58,490 bases of DNA from a bacterium (GTDB lineage Bacteria > Chloroflexota > Chloroflexia > Chloroflexales > Kallotenuaceae). A model generated the notes under the pieces. The model ran no database searches, was not told the origin of the DNA, and worked only from the letters and a program-made list of their open reading frames with translations. Shown one piece after another: positions 3,595 through 57,995 of this stretch. Location: NCBI GenBank assembly GCA_016781525.1, contig JADDQE010000202.1, positions 1-58,490 of the forward strand, given 5' to 3'. The stretch's first letter is position 1. Every line of letters begins with the position of its first letter. The translations under genes were made by a program, and so were the position numbers.

Positions 3595-4863
<1,269 letters not shown>

Positions 4864-8653: not shown

Positions 8654-8688
8654 AAAGCGGCTACCCCTAGGGGTAGCCGCTTTGTTAT
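8654..8688 (+). terminator. Rho-independent terminator
   Basis: A perfect 30-bp palindrome (8654-8683) with arms AAAGCGGCTACCCCT and its complement, ending in TTTGTT. It lies 20 bp after the Fe-S carrier gene. Confidence 0.9.
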
Positions 8689-8831
8689 GCACCAAAAAAG
8701 CGTGCCGACTTTCTATCCGATGGCCGATGGATCACGCTTGACTTCCCGTTGCATCAGGATTCGCGCCAGAATTCGTGGCACAATGCTTGTAAAGGTATAG
8801 AAAAAGTAGATCTCGCGCGAAGGATAGGACC

Positions 8832-9440
8832 ATGGCATTGGGAAGCGAGCGGTTGCATGTAGTTGGGATCGGTGGGACGCTGCGCGCGAGCTCGACGAGC
8901 GCCTGGGCGCTTGAGCGCGCGCTCAATGCCGCGGGACGAGCGGGTGCCACCACCGACCTGTTGACAGTTAACGAGTTTAGGCTGCCGATATATGAGCCGG
9001 GTAAAGCGCTTGACGAATACGAGCCGATCGTTGGCGAGTTCATCTCGCGAGTGCGGCGGGCTGACGCGATGATTTGGAGTACGGCGGCGTATCAGGGCAC
9101 ACTTGCAGGCGTCACCAAGAACGCGATTGATTTCTTCCAATTTCTGTCGGATAGCGAGCCGCCCTACCTCCAGAACCGGGTCGTGGGCCTGGCTGCGACT
9201 GCTGGCGGCGATATCGCGGCCGTTAACGCAATCAACGCAATGCTTCATTCCGTCACGTCGTTACGAGGTACGCCGGCGCCGCTGTTTGTGGCAATTCCGC
9301 AGGCACATAACGTGTTCGATAAGCGCGGTAACATTCTCGACAAGAAGTGGGCCGATCGTCTTGATCAGCTTGGCTGGCTAGTCGTCGACCACGCGTCTAG
9401 GTTCCATCCAGCGCGGATCGAGCTGGCATTGGGAGCCTAG
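8832..9440 (+). CDS. NADPH-dependent FMN reductase family protein
   Basis: A 202-aa flavodoxin-fold oxidoreductase. Seen: GIGGTLRASSTSAWALERAL (FMN phosphate loop), STAAYQGTLAGVTKNAIDFF (the family's pattern of a Tyr-Gly/Gln loop before KNAIDF), and AATAGGD. It would reduce FMN or quinone-type substrates with NAD(P)H in the cytosol; the physiological substrate is not shown. ATG 8832 has AGGATAGGA just upstream. It stands alone and ends against a strong bidirectional hairpin. Confidence 0.88.
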   Translation: MALGSERLHVVGIGGTLRASSTSAWALERALNAAGRAGATTDLLTVNEFRLPIYEPGKALDEYEPIVGEFISRVRRADAMIWSTAAYQGTLAGVTKNAIDFFQFLSDSEPPYLQNRVVGLAATAGGDIAAVNAINAMLHSVTSLRGTPAPLFVAIPQAHNVFDKRGNILDKKWADRLDQLGWLVVDHASRFHPARIELALGA

Positions 9441-39980: not shown

Positions 39981-41564
39981 CTATGACGGCTCCATAAACC
40001 GGTGCACATTCTCAGGTGGTAGGGGTCGGCTGAGCAGATATCCCTGAATCTCGTCGCAGCCATGCCGGTGTAGTACAGCCCGCTGTTCCACCGTCTCGAC
40101 GCCTTCGGCGATCGTCGTCATCCGCAGCTGGTGGGCCAGGGAGATAATTGCGGTTGCGATCGCTGCAGCCGCGGTATCGTCGTTAATCTCCTGAATAAAG
40201 GAACGGTCGATTTTGATGCTTGTCAGCGGCAGACGCTTAAGATAGGCCAGCGAGGAGTAGCCAGTGCCGAAGTCATCCAAGGACAGGCGCACTCCGAGCT
40301 GTGCGAGCTGGTCTAGCGTGGTACCCGTGGTAGCTCCCCGATCCATGAGAGCACTTTCGGTAACCTCTAGCTCGAGGTAATCTGGGCTGAGACCCACTGC
40401 TTGCAAGCTCCCGACAACAGTCGCATAAAGATCGCCATAGTTAAACTGTTGAGCAGAAATATTGACGGCGACCGGCACGATCCGCAGTCCAGCTAACTGC
40501 CACGCACGATTTTGCGCACACGCCGCGTGTAGTACCCAGGCGCCAAGCGGCACAATGAGTCCGGTCTCCTCCGCGATCGGAATAAATTCTGCCGGCGAGA
40601 TTAGCCCGCGCTTGGGATGCTCCCAGCGGACCAACGCTTCCATGCGGGTTAGGGCACCCGTGACCGTATCAAAGATTGGCTGGTAGTGCAGCCGTAGCTC
40701 GTTCTCGTTGATTGCCCGCCGCAGCTTAGCCTCGAGCCATAGGCGGGCCTGGGCCTGGCTATACATCGCCTGATCAAACAACTCCGTTCGTGCCTTGCCG
40801 CCGGTCTTAGCCCGGTACATTGCAATATCGGCATCGCGCAGTAGGTCGGCTGCTTGGGTATAACTTGGACTACCCCACACAATACCGATGCTGACGGTGG
40901 TCACAACTCCGTGTCCGGCAAGCTCAAGCGGCTCCGCCATTGCCGCTTGGATTCTTTGTGCGAGCTGTAATGCATCCGGTGCATCGCGGAGATCGGTTGC
41001 AAAAATGACGAACTCGTCACCGGCTAAACGGGCGACCATGTCCATCGACCGGACACATGTGCGTAGCCGGCGGGCTGTCTCCATGAGCAGCTTGTCACCG
41101 ACGGCATGGCCCAGACTGTCATTGATCGCCTTGAAACGATCAAGGTCCAGGAAAAGCACAGGATAGTACGTTGGGTAGCGCTGTGCACGATCCAGAACAT
41201 GCTGGATCCGATCCATCAAGAGTGTGCGGTTCGGTAACTGCGTGAGCGCGTCAAAAAGCGCAGCCTCGCGCAGCTGGGCCTCGACATGTTGTCGGGCCGC
41301 CGCTTCTGCATCGCGCTCAATCTGCGTTGCAATGATGCGTGCCAGCACGACCAACAGCTCAGCTTGCGGCTCGGAAAGCTCATGGGGCTCAGGATCGACG
41401 GCGCACAATGTTCCAAATACATGTCCGTCACTACGCAGGATCGGGACACCAAGGAAGCAGGCGACATTGGGGTTCGCCGCGAGTGCTGGATGGTCGGCCA
41501 CGCGTGGGTCCGTGGCGGTATTCGATAGGATCAGGGGTCTAGGCTCGACCGAGCCACAAATCAC
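39981..41564 (-). CDS. GGDEF-EAL protein, downstream part of a TGA-interrupted gene
   Basis: This 527-aa reading continues, in the same frame, a GAF domain that begins at 41843 and is cut by TGA at 41568-41570. From GTG 41564 it contains the second half of the GAF domain (to about residue 85), a GGDEF domain (about 105-265, motif RLAGDEF with Ala for the first Gly, plus [17 protein letters not shown]), and an EAL domain (about 280-520; [40 protein letters not shown]). It would make or break cyclic di-GMP in the cytosol. If translation restarts at 41564 the GAF domain is incomplete; no ribosome site is seen there. Confidence 0.85.
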
Positions 41565-41567
41565 ACT

Positions 41568-41843
41568 TCAAAAGGTTTGGTGGAGGGTCAGATCGATGGG
41601 GCTAGGAACATCACTGCCGCCTGCGCGATTATATGCGGCTGTAACCGTATTCTGGTTTTGCTCTTGGTTTATCCGGGTGATGAAGCTTGTACGCAAGCCC
41701 AGGTAATCGACGATCAGTTCCAGAATAGCTTGGACCACGTCATCCGTCGAGGTGAAGCTCCGCAACGATAGTGTCGATAGTCCGGCAAGGTAGCGGCCCC
41801 CGTTTCCGCCGTCTGGGGACATGAATCGGTCGCGTTCCCACAT
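41568..41843 (-). pseudogene. N-terminal GAF half of the interrupted GGDEF-EAL gene
   Basis: 91 codons from ATG 41843 (AAAGGA about 11 nt upstream) encode the first half of a GAF sensor domain: AGLSTLSLRSFTSTDDVVQAILELIVDYLG and so on to LTLHQTF, then TGA. In related GAF domains the residue after this TF is usually Cys. The next codons (Ser, Val, Ile, Cys, Gly) continue the domain perfectly without a frame change. It is therefore the true start of the gene downstream, broken by one nonsense codon or read through. Confidence 0.85.
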
Positions 41844-43581: not shown

Positions 43582-46488
43582 GTGCAACGGGCTATCTCGC
43601 TACATCAAATTCAGCGCACTCGCGCACGCCGCCACGCATTCGGCGGTGTGCGCTTCTTGCTGCCAGCGCTCCTTGCGCTGCTGCTCGGAGCTCTAGCCTA
43701 CCAGTTGCCTTCACGTACGACTATCGATGTCGGCGAGCTTGGCGACCAGCTGTTTCTGTCGTCCTCCGAGGCACAGCGCGCGGAGCAGATCGAACGAGGC
43801 AAATGGTACGCCGACCAGCTTAGTCCGGAGGGGCGGAGCCGCTGGAGTCGTGAGCGCGGTACTATTCGTCTCCCGGGGCTGGGTCATGGGCAAGACGTTC
43901 AGCTTACGCTGCATATGGCAGGCTGGCCATCTGATGTTGTACGGGCAGCGCCGAAACAGCCGGAAGTGCAGATTTTGGTCGGCGGTCAAGCGGTAGGAGT
44001 GGTTACTCCATCCTCGGACGTAGCTGCCTATACTGTATCAATTCCTGCCGCGCTCCAGGCAACGGGCCCGCTGACGACGACGCTCCAAGTGACGCCGACC
44101 TTTACCGATACGGCTGTGCAAGTCGATGCGCGACCAAAGGGTATTCGGCTGGATGCGATTGAGGTAGTCACCAGAGGCCGGGGCGTGCAGCCGGATTGGC
44201 TGGTCCTCGGCGGTCTGGTGCTGGCCACAGTGCTGACCACTGGCGTCGCAGCTAGCGGTTCACAACGGGGATGGCTAGTCGGACTGGCCAGCATGAGCGT
44301 AGCGCTGTTTGGGGCAAGCGCAATCTTTGTGGCTCGGCCATGGCTGGCGGCATTGCTGCCTGGGGTGCTGGTAGCCCTGGCAATGCTGTTCGCGCTCGTC
44401 AATGTCGGCTGGCTCGCGCGTCAGCTCGCGGCTATTCGCTGGCGGATGAGCGAGAGCCGTCCTGTAGATTTTGGCCTCGTCGCCGCGGTATTGTTGATCT
44501 GTCTGTATCTTGCGGCGCGACCGCTGCTCGATCAAGACCTGCCGACGATCGAGCCGTTCCAGCGGGATGGCGCCGAGCGCTTCTTCCGGGTGGTGATGTG
44601 GCTCTCGTTGGCGGGTACTGTGCTGTTGGCGCTGCTAAGCAGTGTAACACTGCTTCCACAATGGCTCTTGACGCTACGGCGTGCGCTCCTGACCCGGCGT
44701 CTCGCGGCGATGTTGCTCGGCCTGCTGGCGGGCGTATGGTTGGGCTATCTCACTTGGCTCATGTCCACGCTCCCATTCGTCGGCCATGCCGACTATGCCG
44801 ACAACGCCGTCGTCGCGCGCAATCTGCTTCGCGGGCGAGGCTACGTCGTCGATTACGTGACCCAGTTCTACCGGCTGATCCCGGGGGGGAGTGTAACGCG
44901 ACCTCAGGAAACATGGCCGCTGCTGCAGCCGCTGCTGATGCTGCCTACAATGGCGTTGCTCGGCCCAACGCCGTTTGCGGTGCGGCTGCCTAATCTTTTG
45001 TTCTTGGTCACGTTGACGCTCTTGATCTACCATATCGGAGCGCGCCTCTGGGACCGCCGAGTTGGGCTACTCGCCGCCATTCTTACGCTTACCAATGTGC
45101 TCTTTTTTCGCCTCGCAATCTACGCCACGAGTGACCTGGCTTTGGTTGTGTGGAGCATGGCCGCGTTTTGGCTGGTGTATCAAGCGGTGGAGCAAAGAGT
45201 AGAGAACAAAGAACGGGCTTCACAAGCATCATCCGGTATCCGCCCTTTTTTATCGAACCGCTGGGCTTGGGCGGGTCTCTTCAGCGGCTTGATGATCCTG
45301 CAAAAGCCCAGCAGTGCCATACTGGTATTTGGGATGGGGCTGTGGGTGCTTGGGTGGACGTACGCTCGTTCGGCAGGTGAAGACCGAATAGCTCGTCTTC
45401 GCAGCTGGAGTGCGCGTTGGGTGCGCCCACTGTTGACATGGACGGCGCTTACAATTCTGGTAGTGACCCCTTATCTCGTCCGAAACCTGCTGGTTTTTGG
45501 GCGGCCCTTCTTTTCGACTGAGGCCTATGACGCCTGGATTTTGTATTTCCGAGGCACACGCGGCGAAGCATGGGAAGATATCTACAAGATATACACGCCG
45601 GAGTTGGGCGGGCCGGGTCTCCCTGAGCGGTCGTGGATTTTACGCTGGGGCTATGATCTGACGCTGGGTAAAGTTGCACAGCAAGCGCGCGACGCCTGGC
45701 AATTCTTTGCGCCTCCCAAGGGCGTACTGCTCAGCACTGGCAATCGCGACGAGTTCCCACATGGCGTCCTTGGCACCTGGCTGATGCTGCTCGGGCTTGT
45801 AACGCTACGGCGGCGTCCACGCGCGCTCATCGGCTTGATCGCAGCGGCGCTCGTGCCCTATATCCTGTTCTTGGTCGTATACTGGCATACGCATGACGAG
45901 CCGCGCTACTTTGTGCCGTTCGTGCCATGGCTCGCACTGCTGAGCGCTTGGGGAGCTTGTTGGCTCTTTGATCGGATCGCGGCGATCGACCGAGGCCGGT
46001 GGGCCGGGCTCGGCGGTCTGCTGGTCTCGCTCTCGTTGCTGCTAACGGTTGCTCCCCATTGGTACCAGATCGACCGTTTCCTAGACCCGCAGAGCAGCAG
46101 CTATTGGGGCAAGGACTGGGCGGCCGACCTCGAGGCGTACCGTTGGCTGAGGGAAAATACGCCGTCGGATGCCGTGGTTATGACGCGTGTACCCTGGCAG
46201 CTTAACTTCCATGCCGACCGTGGAGCCGTCATGATCCCGAATGCGGGTGCTCCGGAGATCATGCGGATCGCACGGTATTATGGTGCTGACTACTTGTTAG
46301 TAAATGGCTCGACGACGTCACTGCCTGAAAGCGTAGGGGCATTAAAGCCGCTCGCGCAGGGTAATCCCGGCGAGGGGTGGGTATTAGAGTACACGGCACA
46401 TGACCAGTTTCAGGGTGCGGATGTGTATGTGTATCGCTTTCCAGAAAATTACGCGGGCGTGGAGGATATTCAGGTTGAGAGCAAGTAA
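43582..46488 (+). CDS. GT39-like membrane glycosyltransferase with N-terminal beta domain
   Basis: A 968-aa GT-C protein. Order: an N-terminal helix (about 25-42), an outward beta domain (about 45-200), two or three helices, then a GT39-like core. The core's first outer loop carries the acidic GHADYADNAVVARNLLRGRGY followed by QETWPLLQPLLMLPTMALLG, and it continues with AARLWDRRVGLLAAILTLTN-type helices. A C-terminal soluble segment (YRWLRENTPSDAVVMTRVPWQLNFHADRG) is common in this family. It should transfer sugar from a polyprenyl-phosphate donor outside the membrane. GTG 43582 has no ribosome site and lies ten bases after TATAAT, so the mRNA may be leaderless. Confidence 0.85.
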   Translation: MQRAISLHQIQRTRARRHAFGGVRFLLPALLALLLGALAYQLPSRTTIDVGELGDQLFLSSSEAQRAEQIERGKWYADQLSPEGRSRWSRERGTIRLPGLGHGQDVQLTLHMAGWPSDVVRAAPKQPEVQILVGGQAVGVVTPSSDVAAYTVSIPAALQATGPLTTTLQVTPTFTDTAVQVDARPKGIRLDAIEVVTRGRGVQPDWLVLGGLVLATVLTTGVAASGSQRGWLVGLASMSVALFGASAIFVARPWLAALLPGVLVALAMLFALVNVGWLARQLAAIRWRMSESRPVDFGLVAAVLLICLYLAARPLLDQDLPTIEPFQRDGAERFFRVVMWLSLAGTVLLALLSSVTLLPQWLLTLRRALLTRRLAAMLLGLLAGVWLGYLTWLMSTLPFVGHADYADNAVVARNLLRGRGYVVDYVTQFYRLIPGGSVTRPQETWPLLQPLLMLPTMALLGPTPFAVRLPNLLFLVTLTLLIYHIGARLWDRRVGLLAAILTLTNVLFFRLAIYATSDLALVVWSMAAFWLVYQAVEQRVENKERASQASSGIRPFLSNRWAWAGLFSGLMILQKPSSAILVFGMGLWVLGWTYARSAGEDRIARLRSWSARWVRPLLTWTALTILVVTPYLVRNLLVFGRPFFSTEAYDAWILYFRGTRGEAWEDIYKIYTPELGGPGLPERSWILRWGYDLTLGKVAQQARDAWQFFAPPKGVLLSTGNRDEFPHGVLGTWLMLLGLVTLRRRPRALIGLIAAALVPYILFLVVYWHTHDEPRYFVPFVPWLALLSAWGACWLFDRIAAIDRGRWAGLGGLLVSLSLLLTVAPHWYQIDRFLDPQSSSYWGKDWAADLEAYRWLRENTPSDAVVMTRVPWQLNFHADRGAVMIPNAGAPEIMRIARYYGADYLLVNGSTTSLPESVGALKPLAQGNPGEGWVLEYTAHDQFQGADVYVYRFPENYAGVEDIQVESK

Positions 46489-46569
46489 CAGATGCTGGCT
46501 GGCCTGTGTACGGAGTGGTATGGCTCAGAGGCGGTTCCTGCTCGACTTGTGTAGCCTCCTGAGTGGTCT

Positions 46570-47814
46570 ATGAAGATCGCAATGCTGACATCATCCTATC
46601 CCAAGTGGCCGGGAGAGATGACTGCGCCATTTATCGAGGAAATTGCCTCGAGTGTCGCAGCGCGCGGCCATGAGGTGCATGTGTTGATGCCTCATCGCGG
46701 TGATCTGCGACGGCAGCCCTTCGAGCGGGGAGTCTATCTCCACTGCTATCGCTATGCGCCCACACAAGCGCTTGAGGTGTGGGGCTATGCAGCCGCGCTC
46801 CATGGCGATGTGGGGATGCGGGTAAGCACACTCGTGGCGGCACCCTTCGCCCTGGTGCACGGGTATCGCTCACTGCTTGCCCTGGTCAGGCATGAAGGCT
46901 ACGACCTTGTGCATGGCCACTGGGTGCTGCCGAATGGAGCGGTCTCAGCACTGGTCGCGCAACACTGCAAGCTACCGCTCGTGATATCACTACATGGCTC
47001 GGATGTGTTCCTTGCGGAGCGGACGCCACCAACGGCATGGACAGCGGCATTGGCGGCACAGAGGGCGGACGGAATTACGGCTTGCTCAGGCGACCTAGCG
47101 GCACGGTTGGCACGCCTAGGTGGACCGCCGGAGCGAATGCAAGTAATTCCCTACGGCATCGATCCGGAGGTCTTTAGACCCGATTCCGAGGCTGGCGCCG
47201 CTGTACGCGAGCAGTTGGGCATTGCGCCGGAGCGTCCGGTGTTGATGTGGGTCAGCCGGATGGTTTACAAAAAGGGGCTGACGGTGCTATTGGACGCGTT
47301 GCCAATGGTGTTGCAGCGTCATCCTCGGGTACTGCTGGTTCTTGGCGGCTATGGCGACCTCCGGGATGCGCTTGAGCAACAGGCAAAGCAGCTTGGCATC
47401 GCCGATAGCGTGCTCTTTCCCGGGCCCGTCGACCGCGACAACATCAATCGCTATTGGAACGCGGGTGATATCGTGGTTGTGCCAGCGATTCACGACCATG
47501 GCGGCAATGTCGATGGGCTGCCCAACATCATTCTCGAATCCATGAGCGCCGGACGGCCGGTTGTGGCGAGCAACGTCGCGGGCATTCCGCAGGTGATTAC
47601 CAGTGGTGAGCATGGCCTGTTGGTGCCTGAAGGAGACGCCGGGGCGCTGGCCGAGGCTTTAACTGCGCTGCTGGACGATCCTTCGAGCGCCGCACGGCTC
47701 GGCCTCGCCGCGCGGCAACGTGTCGAGCGTGAGCTACGTTGGCGCCACATTGCGGCGCGTTTTGAGCAGGTCTATGAAACGGCGCGAGAGCATTTCGCGA
47801 CACGTCAAAGTTGA
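46570..47814 (+). CDS. GT4-family glycosyltransferase
   Basis: A 414-aa cytosolic GT-B enzyme. N-terminal domain MKIAMLTSSYPKWPGEMTAPFIEEIA with HGHWVLPNGAVSALVAQHCKLPLVISLHGSDVF; C-terminal donor domain with WVSRMVYKKGLTVLLDALP and the nucleotide-sugar motif GLPNIILESMSAGRPVVASNVAGIPQVI. It retains configuration and uses a nucleotide sugar; donor and acceptor are unknown. It lies 7 bp before a nucleotide-sugar dehydrogenase gene, so a uronic-acid donor is possible. The ribosome site is not obvious. Confidence 0.93.
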   Translation: MKIAMLTSSYPKWPGEMTAPFIEEIASSVAARGHEVHVLMPHRGDLRRQPFERGVYLHCYRYAPTQALEVWGYAAALHGDVGMRVSTLVAAPFALVHGYRSLLALVRHEGYDLVHGHWVLPNGAVSALVAQHCKLPLVISLHGSDVFLAERTPPTAWTAALAAQRADGITACSGDLAARLARLGGPPERMQVIPYGIDPEVFRPDSEAGAAVREQLGIAPERPVLMWVSRMVYKKGLTVLLDALPMVLQRHPRVLLVLGGYGDLRDALEQQAKQLGIADSVLFPGPVDRDNINRYWNAGDIVVVPAIHDHGGNVDGLPNIILESMSAGRPVVASNVAGIPQVITSGEHGLLVPEGDAGALAEALTALLDDPSSAARLGLAARQRVERELRWRHIAARFEQVYETAREHFATRQS

Positions 47815-47821
47815 GATAAAA

Positions 47822-49207
47822 ATGAGCTACCCAGAGCAAAAAACAGATATCGGTGTGGATACAGTTGCTGCAATTGAAAACGGGGAGGTCGTGGCGGGCC
47901 TACAGGCCCGGATCGACGACCGAACCGCGCTGGTTGGGGTGGTTGGTCTCGGCTATGTTGGCGTGCCCCTGGCGGTACGGGCGGCCTCGGTCGGCTTTCG
48001 GGTACTCGGATTCGACGTCATCAACGAGCGTGTCGCGCGCATCAGCCGCGGGGAAAGCTATACGGTAGACGTGCCAACAGCTAAGCTCGCCGCTTTGGTT
48101 GAATCCGGCCAGATGTCCGCGACCTCCGACTTCGAGCTGCTCGGCATGTGCGACGTTATCGTGATCTGCGTTCCGACACCGCTCGACGAGCACGGACAGC
48201 CCGATATTTGCTACATCGAGCAATCTGGCATCAGTATTGCCAAGACCCTGCGCCCGGGCCAGCTGGTTGTGCTGGAAAGCACAACGTGGCCCGGCACCAC
48301 GGACGAAGTGCTGCTGCCAAAGTTTGTTGCACAGGGCCTTGCCGTTGGCCAGGACTTCTTTTTGGCATTCTCGCCGGAGCGGATCGACCCTGGGCAGACC
48401 AACAGCAAAGGCTGGACGGTTGAGAACACGCCCAAGGTAGTCGGCGGCGTGACGTTTGCGTGTACCCAGCTCGCCAAGCGGTTCTATGGTGGGATCGTTC
48501 AACAGATCGTCGAAGTATCATCGGCACGCACCGCGGAGATGACCAAGCTCGTCGAGAATATTTTCCGTAACGTCAACATTGCGCTGGTGAACGAGCTGGC
48601 GCTGCTGTGCGATCGGATGGATCTCAACATCTGGGAGGTGCTGGACGCTGCCGCAACCAAGCCGTTCGCGTTCATGAAGCACACGCCCGGACCGGGCCTC
48701 GGCGGTCACTGTATACCCCTGGACCCATTTTATCTCAGCTGGAAGGCGCGTGAGTACGATTTCCACACGCGCTTCATCGAGCTTGCGGGCCACGTCAACA
48801 ATGCCATGCCCTACCATGTTGTGCAGCTCGTCGTACGTGGGCTTAACAAGCTCCGGAAGAGCCTTAACGGCGCCACGGTGGTGCTGCTTGGCGTCGCCTA
48901 CAAGCCCGACATCGACGATTACCGCGAGTCGCCAATCTTCAAAATCATGCAGCTGCTCGCGGCAGAAGGTGCGAATGTGGTCACGGTCGATCCGCACGTG
49001 GAGGTCTTTTACGACCACCACGGTCACGCATTTCAAACTACGCCGCTGACCGACGAGCTGCTTGACGTGGCTGATTGTGTGACCATTATTACGAACCACA
49101 GGGCTTTTGACTATGAGCGTATCGTGCAGATGGCGCGGGTAGTTGTAGATACGCGCAATGCTACTCGTGACGTGCGCGAAGGACGCGACAAGATCGTTCT
49201 CCTATGA
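47822..49207 (+). CDS. Nucleotide-sugar dehydrogenase (UDP-GlcNAc 6-dehydrogenase type)
   Basis: A 461-aa NAD-dependent enzyme oxidising the C6 hydroxyl of a UDP-sugar to the uronic acid. N-terminal Rossmann VVGLGYVGVPLAVRAASVGF, SARTAEMTKLVENIFRNVNIALVNELA, and the catalytic-Cys motif GPGLGGHCIPLDPFYLSWKA; C-terminal VLLGVAYKPDIDDYRESP. The GGHCIPLDPFYL form points to the WbpA/WecC group (UDP-HexNAc) rather than UDP-glucose dehydrogenase. The ATG at 47822 was chosen over an upstream frame opening inside the GT4 gene. Its stop overlaps the next start (ATGA). Confidence 0.93.
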   Translation: MSYPEQKTDIGVDTVAAIENGEVVAGLQARIDDRTALVGVVGLGYVGVPLAVRAASVGFRVLGFDVINERVARISRGESYTVDVPTAKLAALVESGQMSATSDFELLGMCDVIVICVPTPLDEHGQPDICYIEQSGISIAKTLRPGQLVVLESTTWPGTTDEVLLPKFVAQGLAVGQDFFLAFSPERIDPGQTNSKGWTVENTPKVVGGVTFACTQLAKRFYGGIVQQIVEVSSARTAEMTKLVENIFRNVNIALVNELALLCDRMDLNIWEVLDAAATKPFAFMKHTPGPGLGGHCIPLDPFYLSWKAREYDFHTRFIELAGHVNNAMPYHVVQLVVRGLNKLRKSLNGATVVLLGVAYKPDIDDYRESPIFKIMQLLAAEGANVVTVDPHVEVFYDHHGHAFQTTPLTDELLDVADCVTIITNHRAFDYERIVQMARVVVDTRNATRDVREGRDKIVLL

Positions 49208-51366
49208 GCGTAGAGCACAAGAACGGGGATCTAAGAACCGCGAGCCAGCAGTTGCGTATCGACCGCTCATTATTGTCAGGGAGTTTGCGCTCCGTTCTGT
49301 GGTCCTGGTCGTTGGCCGGCGCGCTCTTTGCGCTGGCGCTCCTGCTGCGCTTGTACCGCCTCGATGCTCAGCCGCTCTGGCTCGACGAAGGCGAGACATG
49401 GAAGACCGTTACTCGTAGCCACCTTAGCGCCCTGCTGTCCGATCTGTTTCGGCCAACCCAGGCGTATCCGCTCTATCACCTCGTCGTCAAGCTTGCGACG
49501 CGGCTGCTGGGTGACAGCGAGTGGGCGCTGCGGCTTCCCTCTGCGCTGGCGGGTGCGTGCGCTGTTCCCGCTCTGTTTGCGCTTGGACTTGCCGTCCGCG
49601 GCTGGGTACTCGGTTTAAGCGCTGCGCTGCTGCTCCTGGTCTCGCCGTTCGCGCTATGGCAAGCCCAGGATGCGAAAGCATACAGCCTGACCCTGCTGGT
49701 CGCCATCCTGATCGCTTTGACACTCATGCGCGCGCTCCATGGCGGAACCCGCGGTCGCTGGCTGCTCTTCGGGACGATCGCGGCGGTCGCGCCGTTCACG
49801 CATCGGCTGCTCATCTTCAATCTGCTCGGCTGCGCGATTGTGTGGGGCCTCATGAGCGGCCATCCTCGTCGTCGCCTAGTTCTGGCAGGCGCGGTTGGGC
49901 TGGGTGGTGCCTTGATCATCGGCCTCACCTTTGCGCTACGATACCAGCGCGCCGGGGGCCAGTTCGCGAGCGTCGGCCCGTTGACGGCGGGCTGGCTAAC
50001 CTTTGGTCAGTTCGCGGTGGGACAGTGGCCGGGCGCGGTGCGGAAGCTTTGGCTATTACCATGGGTGTTTCTGACCTTGGTAGGCGGGCTGCGGCTGCTG
50101 ATGGACGTGGTAGGCGGGCGGCACAAGCCGGGTCCGCTGCTCGTTCTGGTGCTGGCTGCATTTCCGGCGCTTGTGTTCGCGGTGCTGCTCCTGCTCCAGC
50201 CGCTGTACGAGGCGCGCTACTTCACGATCGTGTTTCCGTTCTGGCTGCTCATCACGGCGTGGGCTTTGCCTGAGTGGATCGAGCTTGCAGGGCAATCAGC
50301 GGCAGCGCCTGGTGGCCAGCGACCAGCGACCAACACGTCAGAGTGGCTCGGCCTTTCACGGCCCTTAGCGCTTAGCGCTTGGCTCGCAGCTGGTGGCTCC
50401 TTCCTCGCGGCGCTCGTGATCTCGAATTGGGCGTTGTACCTGCCGGGCAAAGGGCTCTTCAGCGGTGCGACGGTGAAAGAGGACTTCCGTGGCGCTATCC
50501 GTGAGCTAGCTGGGCGTGTCCATCCTGACGACCTGGTGATCGTGCATCCTGACGCGATCATGCCACTCTACGAGTACTACGCGCCGCGCGTTTCGCAGCA
50601 GCCCTTGCCCACCCCGCTACGCTATGGCTGGCTCGGGCGCTCGGATAATGATAGCGAGCGTGAGCTGCGAGCATTTGACGCGCAGATACGGTCTGATCTT
50701 CAGCGCTATCCGCGGGCCTGGCTGTTAATCGCGCCTGCTCACGCGACGGTGGTCGATAAGCCAAAGCCGGGTGACGAGGTTGGTCTGGTCGGGCTCGCCT
50801 TTCAATATGGCGATCTCAACGGCCGGCTCCAGTGCAATAATCCTGCTTTTTCGCGCTATGTCGGCGTGTGGCTAGGCTGCAACAACATGCCATCGGTGAA
50901 CGGGGCTGCGCCGCAACCGGCGACCGCTCAGACCGCGGTCTTTGGTGACGCTCTGCGGCTGCGCGGCTATACCATTACACCGTTTGCGACCGGCATTCGG
51001 CCCGGTGGTACGCTGCCGCTCACGCTCTTCTGGGAGCCCCTGCGGTCGCTTGCCGGTACCGACTATCAGGTCTTTGTGCACCTTACGCCGATTGGCTCGC
51101 CGAGCCCACTTGCGCAACTTGACGGGCGGCCACTTGAAGGCGGCCTGCCGACGGGCCAGTGGACCGATCCCGGCGCGCAGCTGCACGACGAGCGGACCTT
51201 GCAGCTGCCGCCCGATCTGCCGCCGGGCCGTTACCGCTTGCTGCTGGGCGTGTACCGTCCCGAGGATGGGCAGCGACTGCCAGTTACTGGCACCTCTCAG
51301 CCAGTGTTCGACGACGCGCTGCTGCTCGCTGAGGTCGAGGTCCAGCCAGGGGTCGACCCGCGATGA
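49204..51366 (+). CDS. GT39-like membrane glycosyltransferase with C-terminal beta domain
   Basis: A 720-aa GT-C protein with about 11 helices. The first loop carries LWLDEGETWKTV (Asp-Glu) and PLYHLVVKLATRLLGDSEWALRLPSAL, typical of GT39/PMT-like enzymes. A loop segment at about 370-395 (GGQRPATNTSEWLGLSRPLALSAW) comes from heptamer-like DNA. The last 150 residues form an outer beta domain (LRGYTITPFATGIRPGGTLPLTLFWEPL, PPGRYRLLLGVYRPEDG). The substrate is unknown. It overlaps both neighbours by four bases (ATGA), so the cluster is translated as a chain. Confidence 0.87.
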   Translation: MSVEHKNGDLRTASQQLRIDRSLLSGSLRSVLWSWSLAGALFALALLLRLYRLDAQPLWLDEGETWKTVTRSHLSALLSDLFRPTQAYPLYHLVVKLATRLLGDSEWALRLPSALAGACAVPALFALGLAVRGWVLGLSAALLLLVSPFALWQAQDAKAYSLTLLVAILIALTLMRALHGGTRGRWLLFGTIAAVAPFTHRLLIFNLLGCAIVWGLMSGHPRRRLVLAGAVGLGGALIIGLTFALRYQRAGGQFASVGPLTAGWLTFGQFAVGQWPGAVRKLWLLPWVFLTLVGGLRLLMDVVGGRHKPGPLLVLVLAAFPALVFAVLLLLQPLYEARYFTIVFPFWLLITAWALPEWIELAGQSAAAPGGQRPATNTSEWLGLSRPLALSAWLAAGGSFLAALVISNWALYLPGKGLFSGATVKEDFRGAIRELAGRVHPDDLVIVHPDAIMPLYEYYAPRVSQQPLPTPLRYGWLGRSDNDSERELRAFDAQIRSDLQRYPRAWLLIAPAHATVVDKPKPGDEVGLVGLAFQYGDLNGRLQCNNPAFSRYVGVWLGCNNMPSVNGAAPQPATAQTAVFGDALRLRGYTITPFATGIRPGGTLPLTLFWEPLRSLAGTDYQVFVHLTPIGSPSPLAQLDGRPLEGGLPTGQWTDPGAQLHDERTLQLPPDLPPGRYRLLLGVYRPEDGQRLPVTGTSQPVFDDALLLAEVEVQPGVDPR

Positions 51367-53633
51367 ACACGGTCGCATTTCACCCTGCCTTGGAGCGACG
51401 ATGGCCGTTGGCCTATCACGTCGGTCTGATCCTTCTGGTTGCCTTTTCGCTGCGGGTGGGGGCGTGGTGGGTGCTCCCACACCGCGGCTTTGTCAGTGAT
51501 GAGGCTGAGTACCTGGCGGCTGCGACATGGCTTGCACAGGGTCGGGGCTTTAGCTTCTTTCAAAACTGGATCTGGACCCGGCCGCCGCTGTACCTGCTCT
51601 TCCTCGCCGCCCACCTTTGGTTTACGGGCGCCGAAACACTGTGGCCGATCCGGTTATCCCAGGCCCTATTAAGCACAATTTCGGTCTGGCTCGTTATGCG
51701 GCTTGCCGGCGCGCTCGCTCCTCCCGCACACACACGCCGCGTGGTGCTGATCGCCGGCTGGGCCATGGCACTCTGCTACAGTCTCGCCACCTTTGCGTTC
51801 TTGCTGCTGTCGGAGACGCTCTTTATCACGTTGCTGCTCGCGGCACTGCTTGCACTGACGCTGTGGGCCCAACGCAAGCGTTGGCTCTGGCTGATTTTGG
51901 GTGGCGCCCTCCTCGGGTTTGGCTCGCTCACACGGGCGATGCTTGCAGGCGCGCTCCCGCTGTTTGCGCTTTGGGTCTTTTGGCAGCGGTTACGATCTCA
52001 AACGGCGGGTAGCGAGTCGACGACTAGCTTGTCCTCGCTCCGACAGCTGGGCTCGGCAATTGGCGCGACAGCCTTGCTCACGGTCGTCACATCGAGCGTT
52101 ATTCTGCCGTGGAGCGTGTATAACACGCGGTTTTTTGGAGCCAGCAGTCTTATCTTGATCGACACGACGAGTGGCTACAACGCGATGCTTGGCGCGCAGT
52201 CGGCCTATCTCGAGGGGCATCCCGAGACCTCTGAGTGCGGACCGACGGCGACCCGCTGTGAGAAAATGATCTTCAAGCAGCTTATCGCCATTCCTGACCA
52301 CGCGGAGCGGCAGACGGAGGCCTATCGCTCCGCGGCGGCTTGGATTAGCGAAAATCCTGCTGGCTTTCTACGCAAGGCCGGGCGCGAGCTGCTGGATATG
52401 CTGTGGGTCAGCTACAGCGGTGATGAGCGACTCGCGGATGGCTACTCCCTGGGACACGTGCCAGCGCTCCATATATTTGGTCTTCTCGCCGACGATACCT
52501 TGTATGTTGTCGCGGCCCCACTCGCGCTTGTTGGTCTTTGGCGGAAGCAGGGCCGCATTGGTAAAGGCCTGGTGCTTGCCTGGCTGCTCTATAATCTTGT
52601 GACCGGGCCGTTGTTTTTCGCGATCAATCGCTTTCGGCTGCCACTGCTCCCGTTCTTGTTCATCTACGCGGGCTGTGCTCTCGGACAGCTTCGCCTGCCA
52701 TGGCCAAATACCACTCGGCGGCTCTTCGGCTGGGCAACGGCAGGCGTGCTGTTGGTAACACTCTTGCCGGCGTACGCCTATCTGCCAAAGCAGGGACAGC
52801 CGAATCAACGCCGTGCCGTCTGGCTTGAAACCTTGATCGGACTGCAGGGTCTTGTGGACGCCGAACGATGCGACCAGATCGAGCAGCTGATTGAGCAGGG
52901 TGATCTGGCGGAGGCGCAGGCACTGCATGACGCCGAAGATCGTCGCAAACCGCGCACCTGCCTCGCGCTCTTACAGTCGCGCATGTCGGCTCTGCGTGGC
53001 AACTCCGAAGCTGCCTTGGAGCTACTCCAGAGTATGGAGCCAATCCCGCAGCGCTATCTGCTCGAAGGCGACATTTATCGTCGAATAGGCGATATCGAGC
53101 GTGCTCGTGGTGCCTTCGTGTCTACAAGACTGGAGCCGAACAATCCGACCTTGTGGGCCTGGGAACACCTGGACCCGCCCTCGACGACACGGATTGACCT
53201 TGGCAACGGTCTTGACTGGGGCTACATCGACGGCTTCTTTCAGCGTGAGTGGACCGACGAGGCCGATAAATTCGGCTCTGGGTTTCGCTGGACGGGGCCC
53301 CTGGCCCGACTACGCTTCCCCGATGCTGGAACGGGCCAGCCACAAAAGCTTCGGCTCCGGCTCAACGGCGCGCGTCCCCCTGCTCAGCCACTAGCCCAGC
53401 TGAGCGTTGGGATAGCGGGTGGCTCCTTCAAAAGCTTCGACTTGGCACCCGGCTGGACAGAGCTGGAGGTTGACCTGCCGCCGACGCCGGCGGGTGAAGA
53501 TGTGACTGTGCTGCTGCGCTCGACGACCTTCGTGCCTGGGCCGGAAGAGCTTCAGGCACGGCAGCTGGCTCGGGAAAAATTGCGATTGCTTGGTGTCCAG
53601 GTGGATTGGGCCGAGCTTATTCCTGCGGATTAA
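51363..53633 (+). CDS. GT39-like glycosyltransferase with TPR and C-terminal module (1)
   Basis: A 756-aa GT-C protein. The first outer loop has SDEAEYLAAATWLAQGRGF and RPPLYLLFLAAHLWF; about 11 helices reach residue 475. Then come TPR-like helices (about 490-585, YLLEGDIYRRIGDIERARGAF) and a C-terminal beta domain starting WEHLDPPSTTRIDLGNGLDWGYIDGFF and RWTGPLARL. The same two-part tail ends the next two genes. It probably transfers sugar from polyprenyl phosphate outside the membrane; the tail may bind protein partners or glycan. ATGA overlap with the preceding gene. Confidence 0.87.
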   Translation: MNTVAFHPALERRWPLAYHVGLILLVAFSLRVGAWWVLPHRGFVSDEAEYLAAATWLAQGRGFSFFQNWIWTRPPLYLLFLAAHLWFTGAETLWPIRLSQALLSTISVWLVMRLAGALAPPAHTRRVVLIAGWAMALCYSLATFAFLLLSETLFITLLLAALLALTLWAQRKRWLWLILGGALLGFGSLTRAMLAGALPLFALWVFWQRLRSQTAGSESTTSLSSLRQLGSAIGATALLTVVTSSVILPWSVYNTRFFGASSLILIDTTSGYNAMLGAQSAYLEGHPETSECGPTATRCEKMIFKQLIAIPDHAERQTEAYRSAAAWISENPAGFLRKAGRELLDMLWVSYSGDERLADGYSLGHVPALHIFGLLADDTLYVVAAPLALVGLWRKQGRIGKGLVLAWLLYNLVTGPLFFAINRFRLPLLPFLFIYAGCALGQLRLPWPNTTRRLFGWATAGVLLVTLLPAYAYLPKQGQPNQRRAVWLETLIGLQGLVDAERCDQIEQLIEQGDLAEAQALHDAEDRRKPRTCLALLQSRMSALRGNSEAALELLQSMEPIPQRYLLEGDIYRRIGDIERARGAFVSTRLEPNNPTLWAWEHLDPPSTTRIDLGNGLDWGYIDGFFQREWTDEADKFGSGFRWTGPLARLRFPDAGTGQPQKLRLRLNGARPPAQPLAQLSVGIAGGSFKSFDLAPGWTELEVDLPPTPAGEDVTVLLRSTTFVPGPEELQARQLAREKLRLLGVQVDWAELIPAD

Positions 53634-53643
53634 GGGACGTTTA

Positions 53644-55794
53644 GTGAGGAACTCGCTAGCTACTCATTCCGTCTCACCACAGGCCGATGCCCGGCCATGG
53701 GCCCCAGTGATCAGCTTGGGCGTACTTGTAGTATTCGGCCTTGCGCTCCGCCTGTTGGTCTGGCATTGGCACGAGCAATATCCCCTGGGCGGCGACGAAC
53801 GCGAGTACTTTGAGCAGGCCCTAACCTGGTTGCAGGGCAAGGGCTATCACGAGCTCCCCTTGATGCGGCCTCCGCTTTACACGGTTTTTCTCGCGGTCAT
53901 TTTTCAGCTCTTCGACTCGCAGGTGCAGCGTGTGCGGTTGGTGCAAGCCTTTATCAGCACCGCGACCATTCCGCTGGTGTGGTTTTGGGCGCGTGACCTC
54001 CTCGGCCGCGAACACGCCCGCGCCGCACTGGTGACAGCTGGTATCGCCGCGCTCTGCTTTACCTTCGCGGCCAACGCCGCTGAGCTGCTGACCGAGACCC
54101 TTTTTGTCGCGGGATTAACCCTGGTGTTCTCGCTGCTGCTACGGAGTGCCTCTGCCCCAGCGACGGCTGCCGGACGCGCATGGGTGTGGGCCGCGCTGGC
54201 TGGTCTTGCTGTCGGCGCTCTTTCGCTCATCCGCTCGGTTGCGCTGCCCCTCGTGCCGTTAGGGGCGCTGTGGCTGCTGGTACAGCATAAGCAGCTGCGG
54301 GACAAGCTGCCCATAAGGGTCTCAAAATCCTCAGCTCGTCGTTCTTTGTGCTTTGTTCTTGGCGCGTTGCTTGTTGTTCTGCCTTGGACCACTCGCAACT
54401 ACGTCTTGTATGCAACGCCAATTGTGATTGATACGACCGGCGCTGAAAACCTTTGGCTCGACAACGACCCCGCCGGCCGCGAAGCGGTCAAGCGACAGCT
54501 GTATGCACTAGGCGACGACCGAGGCCTGCGCCAGAAGCTGTCAATGCGTGAGGGCCTAGCGGCTATCACGGCTGACCCCAGCCGCTTCGCAGCTAAAGCT
54601 TGGGCTGAAACGAAAAAATTCATGGCGCTCGAGTACTTCGACGACCTACGAGCGCGCCGCGCGATCTGGGTTTCGCCGCTTGAGGTTTGGATGCGGCTGC
54701 TGCTAGGCGATGGAATATGGCTGCTGGTACTGGTTGGCGGTTTAGCCGGGCTTTGGCTCGGGCCCCATGACTGGGCGAAGCTGCTCCTGGTCCCGTGGGT
54801 ACTGTATGTGTTCCTGACTGGTCTGCTCTTCCACGTCGAGCTGCGCTACCGCCTGCCGCTCTATCCCGCGCTCCTGCCGTACGCCGGCTGGACGCTGGTT
54901 GGTCTCACCCGACTGCTTCGCCGAAAGACACAGACTTTCCCTAGGCGCTGGCCGCGCCTCCTAGGAGCGACACTGTCGATCGGCGGCGCACTGCTCGTGA
55001 TGCTCCTACATCGGGCCTACCCGGCCGAAGCGTTGATCCTGGCCCGTAAACACCTCCACCTAGCAGCGGCGCATCGTGCATCTGTCTCCGATCCCGCGAC
55101 GACGAAGTCTGCCCGTAGGGCTGCAGAGACAGCTCTGCAACTAGATCCACGCTCAGCCCTGGCACGTGTAGAGCTTGGCCGGCACGCAAATGAAGGACAA
55201 GCCGACGAGTGGTGGCGAGCTGCGATCGAAATATTGCCCGCTCACCCATACGCACATCTTCTGCTGGGCAATAGCTTACGGCAGGGGGGACAGTTGGACG
55301 AAGCACGTGAGGAGCTGCGTTTTGAGACACACTCGCTGGAAGATCTTCAGCGCTGGTCGCTGCACCTGTTTCGCCGTGCTGCGGAAGGTCGCGTCGATAT
55401 CGGTGATGGCCTGGATTTGGGCATGATCACCGGCTTCTATCCCGCGGCGAATGGCACACGCTGGACGCGCGGAACTGCCGAGGTACACAAGCTGACGCCT
55501 GGTGCGGTGTTAAGTGTTCGTGCGCGGAGCCCGCGCCCGCCCGAGGCAGCGCCCGCCGTGGTACGTGTGCTTGCGAATGGTCTGCCAATCGGTACACTGC
55601 ATGTCGGCGCCGAGTGGCAGACCTTTAGAGTTGCTCTACCGGAGCAGCTAAAGCTAGCTGCCGAGCCGTTGACCATACGCCTCGAGGCTTCGACATTTCG
55701 GCCGCGCGATTTTGATCGCTCGAGCGGCGATAACCGTAGCTTGGGTATTGAGATCGACTGGATCGCGACCAACGAACAATCAGCTGCTCCATGA
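53644..55794 (+). CDS. GT39-like glycosyltransferase with TPR and C-terminal module (2)
   Basis: A 716-aa paralogue of its neighbours. First loop GGDEREYFEQALTWLQGKGY and RPPLYTVFLAVIFQLF; membrane core to about residue 465; helical TPR-like part (AETALQLDPRSALARVELG, AHLLLGNSLRQGGQLDEA); C-terminal beta domain with RVDIGDGLDLGMITGFY and RWTRGTAEV. The loop KSSARRSLCFVLGALLVV is encoded by heptamer-like DNA. GTG 53644 follows TAAGGGA; a longer frame overlapping the previous gene is rejected. It overlaps the next gene by four bases. Confidence 0.87.
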   Translation: MRNSLATHSVSPQADARPWAPVISLGVLVVFGLALRLLVWHWHEQYPLGGDEREYFEQALTWLQGKGYHELPLMRPPLYTVFLAVIFQLFDSQVQRVRLVQAFISTATIPLVWFWARDLLGREHARAALVTAGIAALCFTFAANAAELLTETLFVAGLTLVFSLLLRSASAPATAAGRAWVWAALAGLAVGALSLIRSVALPLVPLGALWLLVQHKQLRDKLPIRVSKSSARRSLCFVLGALLVVLPWTTRNYVLYATPIVIDTTGAENLWLDNDPAGREAVKRQLYALGDDRGLRQKLSMREGLAAITADPSRFAAKAWAETKKFMALEYFDDLRARRAIWVSPLEVWMRLLLGDGIWLLVLVGGLAGLWLGPHDWAKLLLVPWVLYVFLTGLLFHVELRYRLPLYPALLPYAGWTLVGLTRLLRRKTQTFPRRWPRLLGATLSIGGALLVMLLHRAYPAEALILARKHLHLAAAHRASVSDPATTKSARRAAETALQLDPRSALARVELGRHANEGQADEWWRAAIEILPAHPYAHLLLGNSLRQGGQLDEAREELRFETHSLEDLQRWSLHLFRRAAEGRVDIGDGLDLGMITGFYPAANGTRWTRGTAEVHKLTPGAVLSVRARSPRPPEAAPAVVRVLANGLPIGTLHVGAEWQTFRVALPEQLKLAAEPLTIRLEASTFRPRDFDRSSGDNRSLGIEIDWIATNEQSAAP

Positions 55795-57995
55795 AACAAC
55801 GGTTCTGGTGGCCAACCGCTCGCCTGCGCGGCGCGCTTCTATGCTTTATTCTGATCGTGGGCTTCGCTCTGCGAGTATGGCTCTGGTGGCGGACTCCCGT
55901 GCATCAGGCGGCCAACGACGAGGTGGAATATCTTGCGGTCGCCCGTGATCTGTTAGCCGGGCACGGCTGGCGCTTCTACGACACGTACCACTGGCTTCGA
56001 GCGCCGCTCTATCCAATCTGGCTGGCGGCGTCGCTGTGGCTCGGCGGCGAGGGGCTCCGCTACGTCGCCCTGCCGAATATTGTCTTGAGCAGCTTCACGG
56101 TCTATCTATACTTCCTCCTCGGGCGGGAGGTGGGCGAGAGCAGCCGTGAGCAAGCAGTTGACGCCGCACGCGCTGAGTGGGTAGGACTACTCACGGCCGG
56201 TTGTGCGGCTGTGCTCCTAACGCTGGCAACCTTTGCCAGTCTTTGGATGGCTGAGACGCTCTTCACGGCGTTGTTCATCGGCTCGCTGCTGGCGTTGCTG
56301 CGCTCTGCGCGGCAGCATTCTCGGCAGCGCCTCTGGCTGGCATTGAGCGGCGTACTACTCGGACTGGCAATCCTAACCCGCTCATTGCCGTTGATGGCTC
56401 TACCGGCGGTGGCGCTCTGGGTGATGTTTCAGCGTCGAGAAGCAGGCTCAAGGCACTGGTGGCTGCCTCCAAGACAGGGCCTGCTCGCCGCCCTGCTATT
56501 TGTGCTGACCACGGCAGGAACGATCGCGCCCTGGACGCTGCGAAACTACCATGCGTACGGAGCAGTGATTCCGGTCGAGACGGGTTTGTCCTACAACCTG
56601 TGGTGGTACAACGAGCCACGTGAAGATGAGGATACGATCCATGGGACCCTCGCGGCCATTGCCAACCCAGCCGAGCGTGCCGACTACGCGACACAGAAAG
56701 GCTTGGCACGGCTGCGGGAGGACCCTGCAATCCTGCTACGGAAGCTGTGGCCGAACTTCAACGCCCTGTGGGTGGTCAAGCCGATCGAAGATCGGTTTCT
56801 GTTGACGAATTATTACCAGGATGTTCCCTTCGGGATGTTTGCCATGGCGCTCCTTCTCGACGACGCGCTCTACACATCGGTCGCAATCCTTGGCCTCTCT
56901 GGATTAGCACTGGCGCCTCTCGATCGGCGCAAGGTGCTGTTGGGTGGATGGCTGCTATGCGTCATCGCGGTGGTGCTTTTGACCCATGGTGAGGGCCGCT
57001 ACCGTCATTTTATTTTTCCGGTGCTGCTGCCCTACGCCGCGGCGTTGCTTGTCGCGCTTCATTACGGCGCAGGCTGGCCTTGCCTGCGTCCTCGGTGGCT
57101 GCTCCTGACGAGCCTCCTTGTGGTGGCGCTCCTGTGGACGCCGCTAGTCCTCCGATACCCGGCTGCCTGGGCCCGCACAAATCTGGGGCGTGGCTGGCTG
57201 GTGCAACGTGCAGAGTGGGCTGCGGGTAGGGGCGATGCCGAGGAGGCCTTGAGGCTGTATTGGCGAGCCCACCAGGCTGACCCAAGGTCAGTGGACGTCT
57301 GGCTTGCGATCGGCAATGTTCAGCTGCGTGACGGCGCCGTCGAGCAGGCACTCTCCGCCTTCGACAGCGCATTTCTGATCTCCCGGTCAAGCGTTCCTGT
57401 CAACGTAAGTCAGGGCGATGCGCTGCGGCGGCTAGGTCGCCTCGATGAGGCACGGCGTGCATTCAAGGGCTACTACACGAGCGAGCTGGAGATGTTGGAG
57501 TGGGCTTGGCTGCATCTCGATACGCCGCCATCAGCGGCGGTCGACGTCGGCGATGGCCTTGATTTTGGCTTTGTCGATGGAATGTACGCCGCTGAGCAGC
57601 AGCTTGGTCGGACTGCACGTTGGACCAAGGGGCAGGCAGCTCTACGGCTGGCAGGTAGTGAGGCCGGTGCGACGATCCGGCTGACGCTTGCGGCGCCGCG
57701 CCCTGATACTCATTCGGTGAGAGCTCAAATCTGTGTCGGCGAGAGGTGTCACGATGTCGAGGTCACGCCGACCTGGCGGGTCTATGAACTGGCTGTTCCT
57801 CCAGCGGATCACTACGAGGTGGCGATTAGCACGACAACCTTCGATCCCCAAGCATTAGAGGGCCAGGCCTCGGACAGTCGTCGTCTGGGTGTATTGGTCG
57901 ATGGGGCGGCGGTCACCCTCTTTGACCCAGCAGCCCGGCCGGCGCAGGGGTCCGCTTCGCCAGCCACCGTATGGAACCCCCCAGCGAGCCCTTAA
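55791..57995 (+). CDS. GT39-like glycosyltransferase with TPR and C-terminal module (3)
   Basis: A 734-aa third copy of the architecture. First loop ANDEVEYLAVARDLLAGHGW and RAPLYPIWLAASLWLGGEG; about 11 helices to residue 460; TPR repeats (LRLYWRAHQADPRSVDVWLAIGNVQLRDGAVEQALSAFDSA and GDALRRLGRLDEARRAF); a C-terminal beta domain with AVDVGDGLDFGFVDGMY and RWTKGQAALRL. Paralogy with the two preceding genes is obvious, but the divergence suggests different sugars or acceptors. The start ATG overlaps the previous stop. It is the last gene of the cluster. Confidence 0.87.
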   Translation: MKQRFWWPTARLRGALLCFILIVGFALRVWLWWRTPVHQAANDEVEYLAVARDLLAGHGWRFYDTYHWLRAPLYPIWLAASLWLGGEGLRYVALPNIVLSSFTVYLYFLLGREVGESSREQAVDAARAEWVGLLTAGCAAVLLTLATFASLWMAETLFTALFIGSLLALLRSARQHSRQRLWLALSGVLLGLAILTRSLPLMALPAVALWVMFQRREAGSRHWWLPPRQGLLAALLFVLTTAGTIAPWTLRNYHAYGAVIPVETGLSYNLWWYNEPREDEDTIHGTLAAIANPAERADYATQKGLARLREDPAILLRKLWPNFNALWVVKPIEDRFLLTNYYQDVPFGMFAMALLLDDALYTSVAILGLSGLALAPLDRRKVLLGGWLLCVIAVVLLTHGEGRYRHFIFPVLLPYAAALLVALHYGAGWPCLRPRWLLLTSLLVVALLWTPLVLRYPAAWARTNLGRGWLVQRAEWAAGRGDAEEALRLYWRAHQADPRSVDVWLAIGNVQLRDGAVEQALSAFDSAFLISRSSVPVNVSQGDALRRLGRLDEARRAFKGYYTSELEMLEWAWLHLDTPPSAAVDVGDGLDFGFVDGMYAAEQQLGRTARWTKGQAALRLAGSEAGATIRLTLAAPRPDTHSVRAQICVGERCHDVEVTPTWRVYELAVPPADHYEVAISTTTFDPQALEGQASDSRRLGVLVDGAAVTLFDPAARPAQGSASPATVWNPPASP

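Follow-up and report, generated by a model that had tools for sequence, protein, structure and literature searches.

The window, the whole 58,490-nucleotide stretch of DNA analysed here, carries on its minus strand a gene for a GAF-GGDEF-EAL protein that is interrupted once, by an in-frame TGA (Table 1). Read on that strand from 41843 to 39981, the frame has the TGA at 41570-41568 as its sole interruption. With this codon translated as a residue, Pfam recognizes all three domains, with GGDEF (153.3 bits) and EAL (254.2 bits) both above the Pfam cut-off. An earlier sequence-only reading had described the frame as continuous apart from this TGA, and the translation and the domain matches confirm that description. 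The GGDEF signature reads AGDEF in translation, so that cyclase activity, and with it c-di-GMP synthesis, is uncertain. Mechanical ORF finding cuts genes of this kind at the UGA; in the ORF list for the window, the gene is split into pieces of 91 and 527 amino acids. Seven of the 37 long ORFs kept for the window end in TGA, and the open run beyond that TGA is at most 34 codons, against 527 codons in the GAF-GGDEF-EAL gene.

Table 1. Features of the GAF-GGDEF-EAL gene and of the predicted selenocysteine codon within it (window coordinates)
Feature	Position	Strand	Details
GAF-GGDEF-EAL gene	39981..41843	-	620 aa with one predicted selenocysteine (residue 92); ATG 41843, TAG 39981; Pfam GAF, GGDEF, EAL
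GAF sensory domain, residues 32-175, spanning the UGA	41319..41750	-	Pfam GAF 1.5e-13, GAF_2 1.1e-13
Predicted selenocysteine codon (residue 92), an in-frame UGA	41568..41570	-	17 genes (15 genomes) have UGA; the 9 next homologues have Cys
Spacer from UGA to hairpin, 12 nt	41556..41567	-	Length constant in 17/17 genes
SECIS-like hairpin GGCUC-GGUC-GAGCC, encoding GSVEP	41542..41555	-	Covariation and synonymous-codon null
Cys 147, GTLC motif	41403..41405	-	Column invariant across all 17 selenocysteine copies; speculative partner of the selenocysteine
GGDEF domain, residues 195-351	40791..41261	-	Pfam 6.1e-45
EAL domain, residues 372-607	40023..40730	-	Pfam 1.3e-75

Elsewhere in the window, a SAM riboswitch (110-284, 74.7 bits) lies just ahead of an ORF at 278-1423 that we take to resemble methylthioribose-1-phosphate isomerase, and the ORFs at 3601 and 4958 presumably correspond to adenosylhomocysteinase and SAM synthetase. 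Positions 43582-57995 hold a series of long membrane-protein ORFs, by our assumption similar to glycosyltransferases, with ORFs in between that we take to be glycosyltransferase-like and UDP-sugar dehydrogenase-like.

We searched with the read-through protein against 60 relatives and found a gene with one TGA in a genome of the same genus (G002; the window's own genome is G000). Its TGA stands at the codon seen in the window, its GAF domain is fused to a histidine kinase, and its hairpin reads GGTTC-GGTC-GAACC. In the 60-genome search, contig 134 of G002 also yielded a GGDEF-EAL gene (45968-47263, minus strand) whose frame is broken once, by a TAA; this is not a selenocysteine codon, and an assembly error or a pseudogene is the probable cause. 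A search of the six genomes of the family added one gene in G004 and one on contig 20 of the window's own genome, and an order-level profile search (82 genomes) added G027. The contig 20 gene (8683-9198, minus strand; loci L109 and L140) is a second GAF domain of this type, which we call Sec-GAF, in the same genome, fused to a histidine kinase and with the hairpin GGCGC-GGTC-GCGCC.

At the level of the class, a profile search of 158 genomes (E at most 1e-22) listed 26 places, all of which we extracted. Seventeen, in 15 genomes, have one TGA, and nine have no stop. In all 17 the TGA falls in one shared alignment column, which is occupied by Cys in every one of the nine listed homologues without a stop and by Ala in one remoter homologue (L193). 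The expectation from the single sequence that related GAF domains have Cys at this position was thus correct, with the addition that many of them have the TGA itself. The distribution is patchy: the class profile search found no UGA copy in G001 or G003, of the same genus, or in G005, of the same family. In two draws of 400 phylum genomes, with an unspecified share from other classes, every UGA copy listed at a threshold of E 1e-18 came from this class, and the viral contigs searched contained no relative. The GGDEF-EAL relatives that a full-protein search of general genome contigs brought up belong to other groups; few of them span the GAF part, so that they were of no use for judging the codon.

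A hairpin follows the codon in each of these genes. The E. coli fdhF selenocysteine element has a GGUC apical loop, and the sequence-only reading had noted the same loop in the window in a hairpin placed 17 nt after the TGA. That distance holds for the loop (41550-41547), while the stem (41555-41542) is separated from the TGA by a 12-nt spacer. The GGTC loop occurs at the 12-nt spacing in all 17 UGA genes, with the consensus GGN[U/G/A]C-GGUC-GNNCC; the genes therefore have what is looked for in a SECIS-type element, a stem-loop just downstream of the codon with a G in a small apical loop. The stem is fully paired in 16 of the 17, the exception being G443, which has one A.C mismatch at the fourth pair. 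Within the window the pattern TGA-N12-GGNNCGGTCGNNCC occurs a single time. A longer hairpin pattern, allowing up to one mismatch, matched 19 sites in the 158 class genomes, of which 17 were the UGA-GAF genes, and a reversed control pattern matched two.

The stem is also coding sequence, for G-[S/A/T]-V-[E/A]-P. The third pair is formed by two synonymous positions and appears as C-G, U-A or U-G among the 17 genes; the fourth alternates between U-A, where Ser is encoded together with Glu, and G-C, where both residues are Ala. Over 16 distinct rows, 98.8% of the 80 cells are paired, and 12 cells are changed on both sides. The covariation score was 0.378, compared with 0.154 for shuffled alignments, and none of 500 shuffles scored as high, a count that is not a probability since the sequences are related. 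When the partner columns were slid by one to three positions, pairing dropped to 32.5-48.8%. Two other measures, pairs with a double change and further pair types, did not rise above the shuffles (462 of 500), as is expected when only two stem pairs vary. Under a synonymous-codon null, in which the protein is fixed and each gene keeps its own codon usage, the chance of a GGTC loop on a stem paired as well as the real one, or better, was 0.009-0.15 per gene; the product over the 17 genes is about 10^-22.6 if they are independent, a figure that is overstated given their relatedness. The folding energy of the window hairpin is ordinary compared with shuffled sequences (51 nt, z = -0.13), so the case rests on comparison and we did not use energy as evidence.

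None of the nine Cys homologues has the hairpin at the place equivalent to that after the UGA. Three of them have some other stem-loop of 5 bp and 4 nt within 42 nt after the Cys codon, with a loop that is not GGTC. The GxVxP motif encoded by the stem is gone in the Cys homologues together with the UGA. Judged by these comparisons, the hairpin is selected as RNA.

A tree of the 26 GAF domains requires four changes between the Sec and Cys labels, at least three of which are forced by well-supported branches; the mean for shuffled labels is 7.7. For example, the selenocysteine copy in G443 clusters with the Cys copies of G442 and G444, all of one genus, and in G481 one Sec and one Cys paralogue are each other's nearest relatives. 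As far as the alignments and tree can tell, this exchange of Sec and Cys with loss of GxVxP is the pattern expected for true selenoproteins. Copies of both kinds in one genus or one genome also provide ready-made pairs for testing what the selenocysteine contributes. For two close pairs of UGA genes we computed dN/dS on either side of the codon. The ratios for G451/G452 were 0.139 upstream and 0.254 downstream, and those for G498/G499 were 0.443 upstream, over a stretch that may include untranslated sequence, and 0.127 downstream. In two remoter pairs synonymous sites were mostly saturated, and the ratio that could be computed, for the window gene and its G002 relative downstream of the UGA, was 0.238. 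Substitutions of this kind show, at the level of the sequence evidence, selection to keep the protein on both sides of the UGA.

We looked for the selenocysteine machinery in the same genomes. The window's own genome has a tRNA-Sec (67.7 bits; ARAGORN anticodon TCA, that is, UCA), SelB (312.6 bits) and SelD (367.4 bits), and its SelD gene itself has a TGA in frame following SCAG. Each of the 15 further SelD genes above the cut-off in the 21 genomes searched likewise carries one TGA. The G000 SelD gene (L144; contig 1, 39192-40145, minus strand) reads SCAG-U-AAK, followed by a G-rich stretch in which a stem-loop is possible when paired by eye, with a loop other than GGUC. SelA was not found in the G000 assembly, which is 86% complete, but each of the other five family genomes has it above the cut-off. 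Among the 15 genomes with UGA genes, 13 have SelA above the cut-off; the two without it, G000 and G027 (76% complete), both have tRNA-Sec. With SelA above the cut-off in 119 of the 158 class genomes, the 13 of 15 indicate consistency without enrichment, and co-occurrence with so widespread a gene is uninformative. Of the four genes that the sequence-only reading had proposed to look for, selB, selC and selD are thus in the genome, and selA is absent from its own assembly and present in the rest of the family; the lack of selenocysteine machinery that it had named as speaking against the idea was not what we found. On the G002 contig that carries the Sec-GAF histidine kinase (contig 43), a further, DsbA-like ORF (L101, minus strand, locus about 1-840) has an in-frame TGA in FYSDFI-TGA-SACRF (UxxC-type). 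It is probably another selenoprotein, of a known DsbA-like kind.

The domain that contains the codon is combined with several outputs. In 12 of the 17 UGA genes HisKA follows the GAF domain, 11 of these having HATPase_c and one being cut by a contig end, and one gene has the order HisKA_3-HATPase-receiver-GerE. Three have GGDEF: the window gene, with EAL; G354, with PAS and with the start of an EAL domain at the locus edge below the cut-off; and G448, with PAS. The remaining gene, in G481, is cut off within its PAS and GAF domains. A signalling output is therefore fused to the Sec-GAF in all 16 genes whose available sequence extends far enough, and on these architectures the predicted selenocysteine is a part of the sensory module and not of any one output. 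All 17 proteins match PF01590. No NCBIfam model names the Sec-GAF family; a weak NifA match, far below the cut-off, appears in eight of the 17. A structural model of residues 14-205, built from six sequences, had a pLDDT of 78.4 and a pTM of 0.77, and places residue 92 (model residue 79) inside a predicted helix, 72-83. The structural neighbours of this model are GAF domains of many kinds, including bilin, haem and free methionine-R-sulphoxide reductase (fRMsr) domains (3mmh, Z 16.9; 3ksf, Z 16.1; 4yof, Z 16.1), so the fold does not choose a ligand.

Several explanations that do not involve selenocysteine have to be considered. One is a pseudogene with a nonsense mutation or a sequencing error. 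The sequence-only reading had preferred such a mutation or error as the simplest, and a lone stop codon in one assembly would indeed look like that; with the TGA and hairpin recurring in 17 genes from 15 separate assemblies, and dN/dS below one both before and after the codon in two close pairs, we give this explanation practically no weight. It is also very unlikely that the UGA is read through as an ordinary amino acid such as Trp, or that translation stops there and restarts at the GTG at 41564. A GTG-started ORF of 527 amino acids does lie downstream, but a restart would split the GAF domain in two, the homologues have Cys and not Trp, and the hairpin is kept in the UGA copies only. Furthermore, TGA terminates other genes in the window (7 of 37), so that there is no reassignment across the genome. 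The conserved TGA and hairpin, with these TGA-terminated genes, effectively exclude mutation, sequencing error and code reassignment. Lastly, the hairpin might be kept for a different reason, as a DNA site, for mRNA control or for the protein motif GxVxP, and adjoin the UGA by chance. The 17 proteins keep the G, V and P of the motif with little or no variation, so a protein constraint is possible, but the Cys homologues lose the motif along with the UGA and the synonymous paired positions covary, and we consider such a coincidence extremely improbable.

Since both this stop codon in the middle of the gene and a small RNA hairpin after it are kept in related bacteria, the codon very probably specifies selenocysteine. 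Selenocysteine had been mentioned from the single sequence as the less simple alternative, and it is this alternative that the machinery genes, the Cys or TGA in the homologue column and the covarying hairpin favour. We are quite confident in the explanation as a whole, in which the gene encodes a selenoprotein with residue 92 inserted by way of SelB and the hairpin, and in which the selenocysteine would be a sensor group for redox state or electrophiles. The comparisons suggest a family of sensor proteins containing selenium that the literature searched does not describe. In the mechanism we propose, once a ribosome reaches the UGA (41570-41568), the hairpin 12 nt downstream of this codon would recruit SelB with Sec-tRNA(Sec), and insertion at residue 92, for which the case is strong, would yield the full GAF-GGDEF-EAL protein. 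The selenocysteine would stand where other GAF domains have Cys, on a helix that probably lines the ligand pocket, to judge from other domains of this fold. More tentatively, oxidation or alkylation of a selenolate in this pocket may alter the domain and then its output, and oxidation might produce a selenenylsulphide with the GTLC cysteine, a partner guessed from its invariance. The altered domain would be expected to change c-di-GMP turnover in the window protein and histidine kinase activity in most of its relatives.

A different role for an inserted selenocysteine has to be weighed against this switch: it might be catalytic, as is the Cys of the GAF-fold free methionine-R-sulphoxide reductase, or a ligand for a metal, haem or bilin. 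Free methionine-R-sulphoxide reductase, to which a title in the references of PMC6316033 refers, shows that a GAF fold can do thiol redox chemistry, and both GAF-fold enzymes and haem or bilin GAF domains are among the structural neighbours (3mmh, 3ksf, 4yof). In the parts of the paper available, a GAF cysteine is also implicated in the [3Fe-4S] cluster of the chloroplast sensor kinase (PMC6949291). On the other side, each of the 16 genes that can be assessed joins the Sec-GAF to a signalling output, and fRMsr lay beyond the reach of the profile search. We regard a role other than a switch as rather unlikely.

A sensory domain based on selenocysteine, responding to redox state or electrophiles, is the function we consider most likely for the Sec-GAF. 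Whether one class of bacteria uses selenocysteine as a sensory residue in the fullest sense, with Sec-GAF domains attached to histidine kinases, LuxR-type phosphorelays and c-di-GMP enzymes, and with signalling directly under the control of selenium chemistry, probably through a selenenylsulphide switch that involves the GTLC cysteine, is to our judgement an evenly balanced proposition. Known selenoproteins are mostly redox enzymes; if the proposal is true, selenium would here be used for sensing and not for catalysis, and selenium supply would be tied to c-di-GMP and two-component signalling.

Among proteins of known structure, the best sequence match of the GAF profile in the PDB is Dcsbis, a GAF-GGDEF protein of Pseudomonas aeruginosa (4zmu, E 2.3e-12). 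It has Cys aligned to the window selenocysteine and shares the GTLC motif; its solved chain, at 345 residues, is too short for an additional EAL domain. Free methionine-R-sulphoxide reductase resembles the Sec-GAF in fold and differs in being a stand-alone enzyme. The GAF domain of the chloroplast sensor kinase and Hik2 is reported to be part of a kinase that senses redox state and depends on a cysteine of its GAF domain (PMC6949291); there the chemistry involves an Fe-S cluster and Cys, as against the predicted selenocysteine here.

In the main texts of the open-licence literature searched, we found no GAF domain, kinase, GGDEF or other signalling protein containing selenocysteine. The same holds for the accessible parts of six reviews and surveys of bacterial selenoproteins (PMC13188914, PMC9312934, PMC12013277, PMC5029168, PMC1794560 and PMC1088965), where "GAF" occurs only as a personal name, in PMC1794560. 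SelD of the window's own genome, a known selenocysteine protein, is like the Sec-GAF gene in its in-frame TGA and possible stem-loop, and differs in sequence and spacing after the TGA. Bacterial selenoproteins that depend on a SECIS element, such as E. coli FdhF and, in the parts of the Sargasso Sea survey available, the families described there (PMC1088965), agree with the genes studied here in the in-frame UGA, the immediate stem-loop, the G in a small apical loop and the Cys homologues; a redox-active position is expected in them, as it is here. The selenoproteins of that survey are, in those same parts, mostly redox proteins, whereas here it is a sensory domain, found in kinases and c-di-GMP proteins, that contains the predicted selenocysteine. 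What is new, as far as the part of the literature searched shows, is the place of use; the decoding itself follows a known system.
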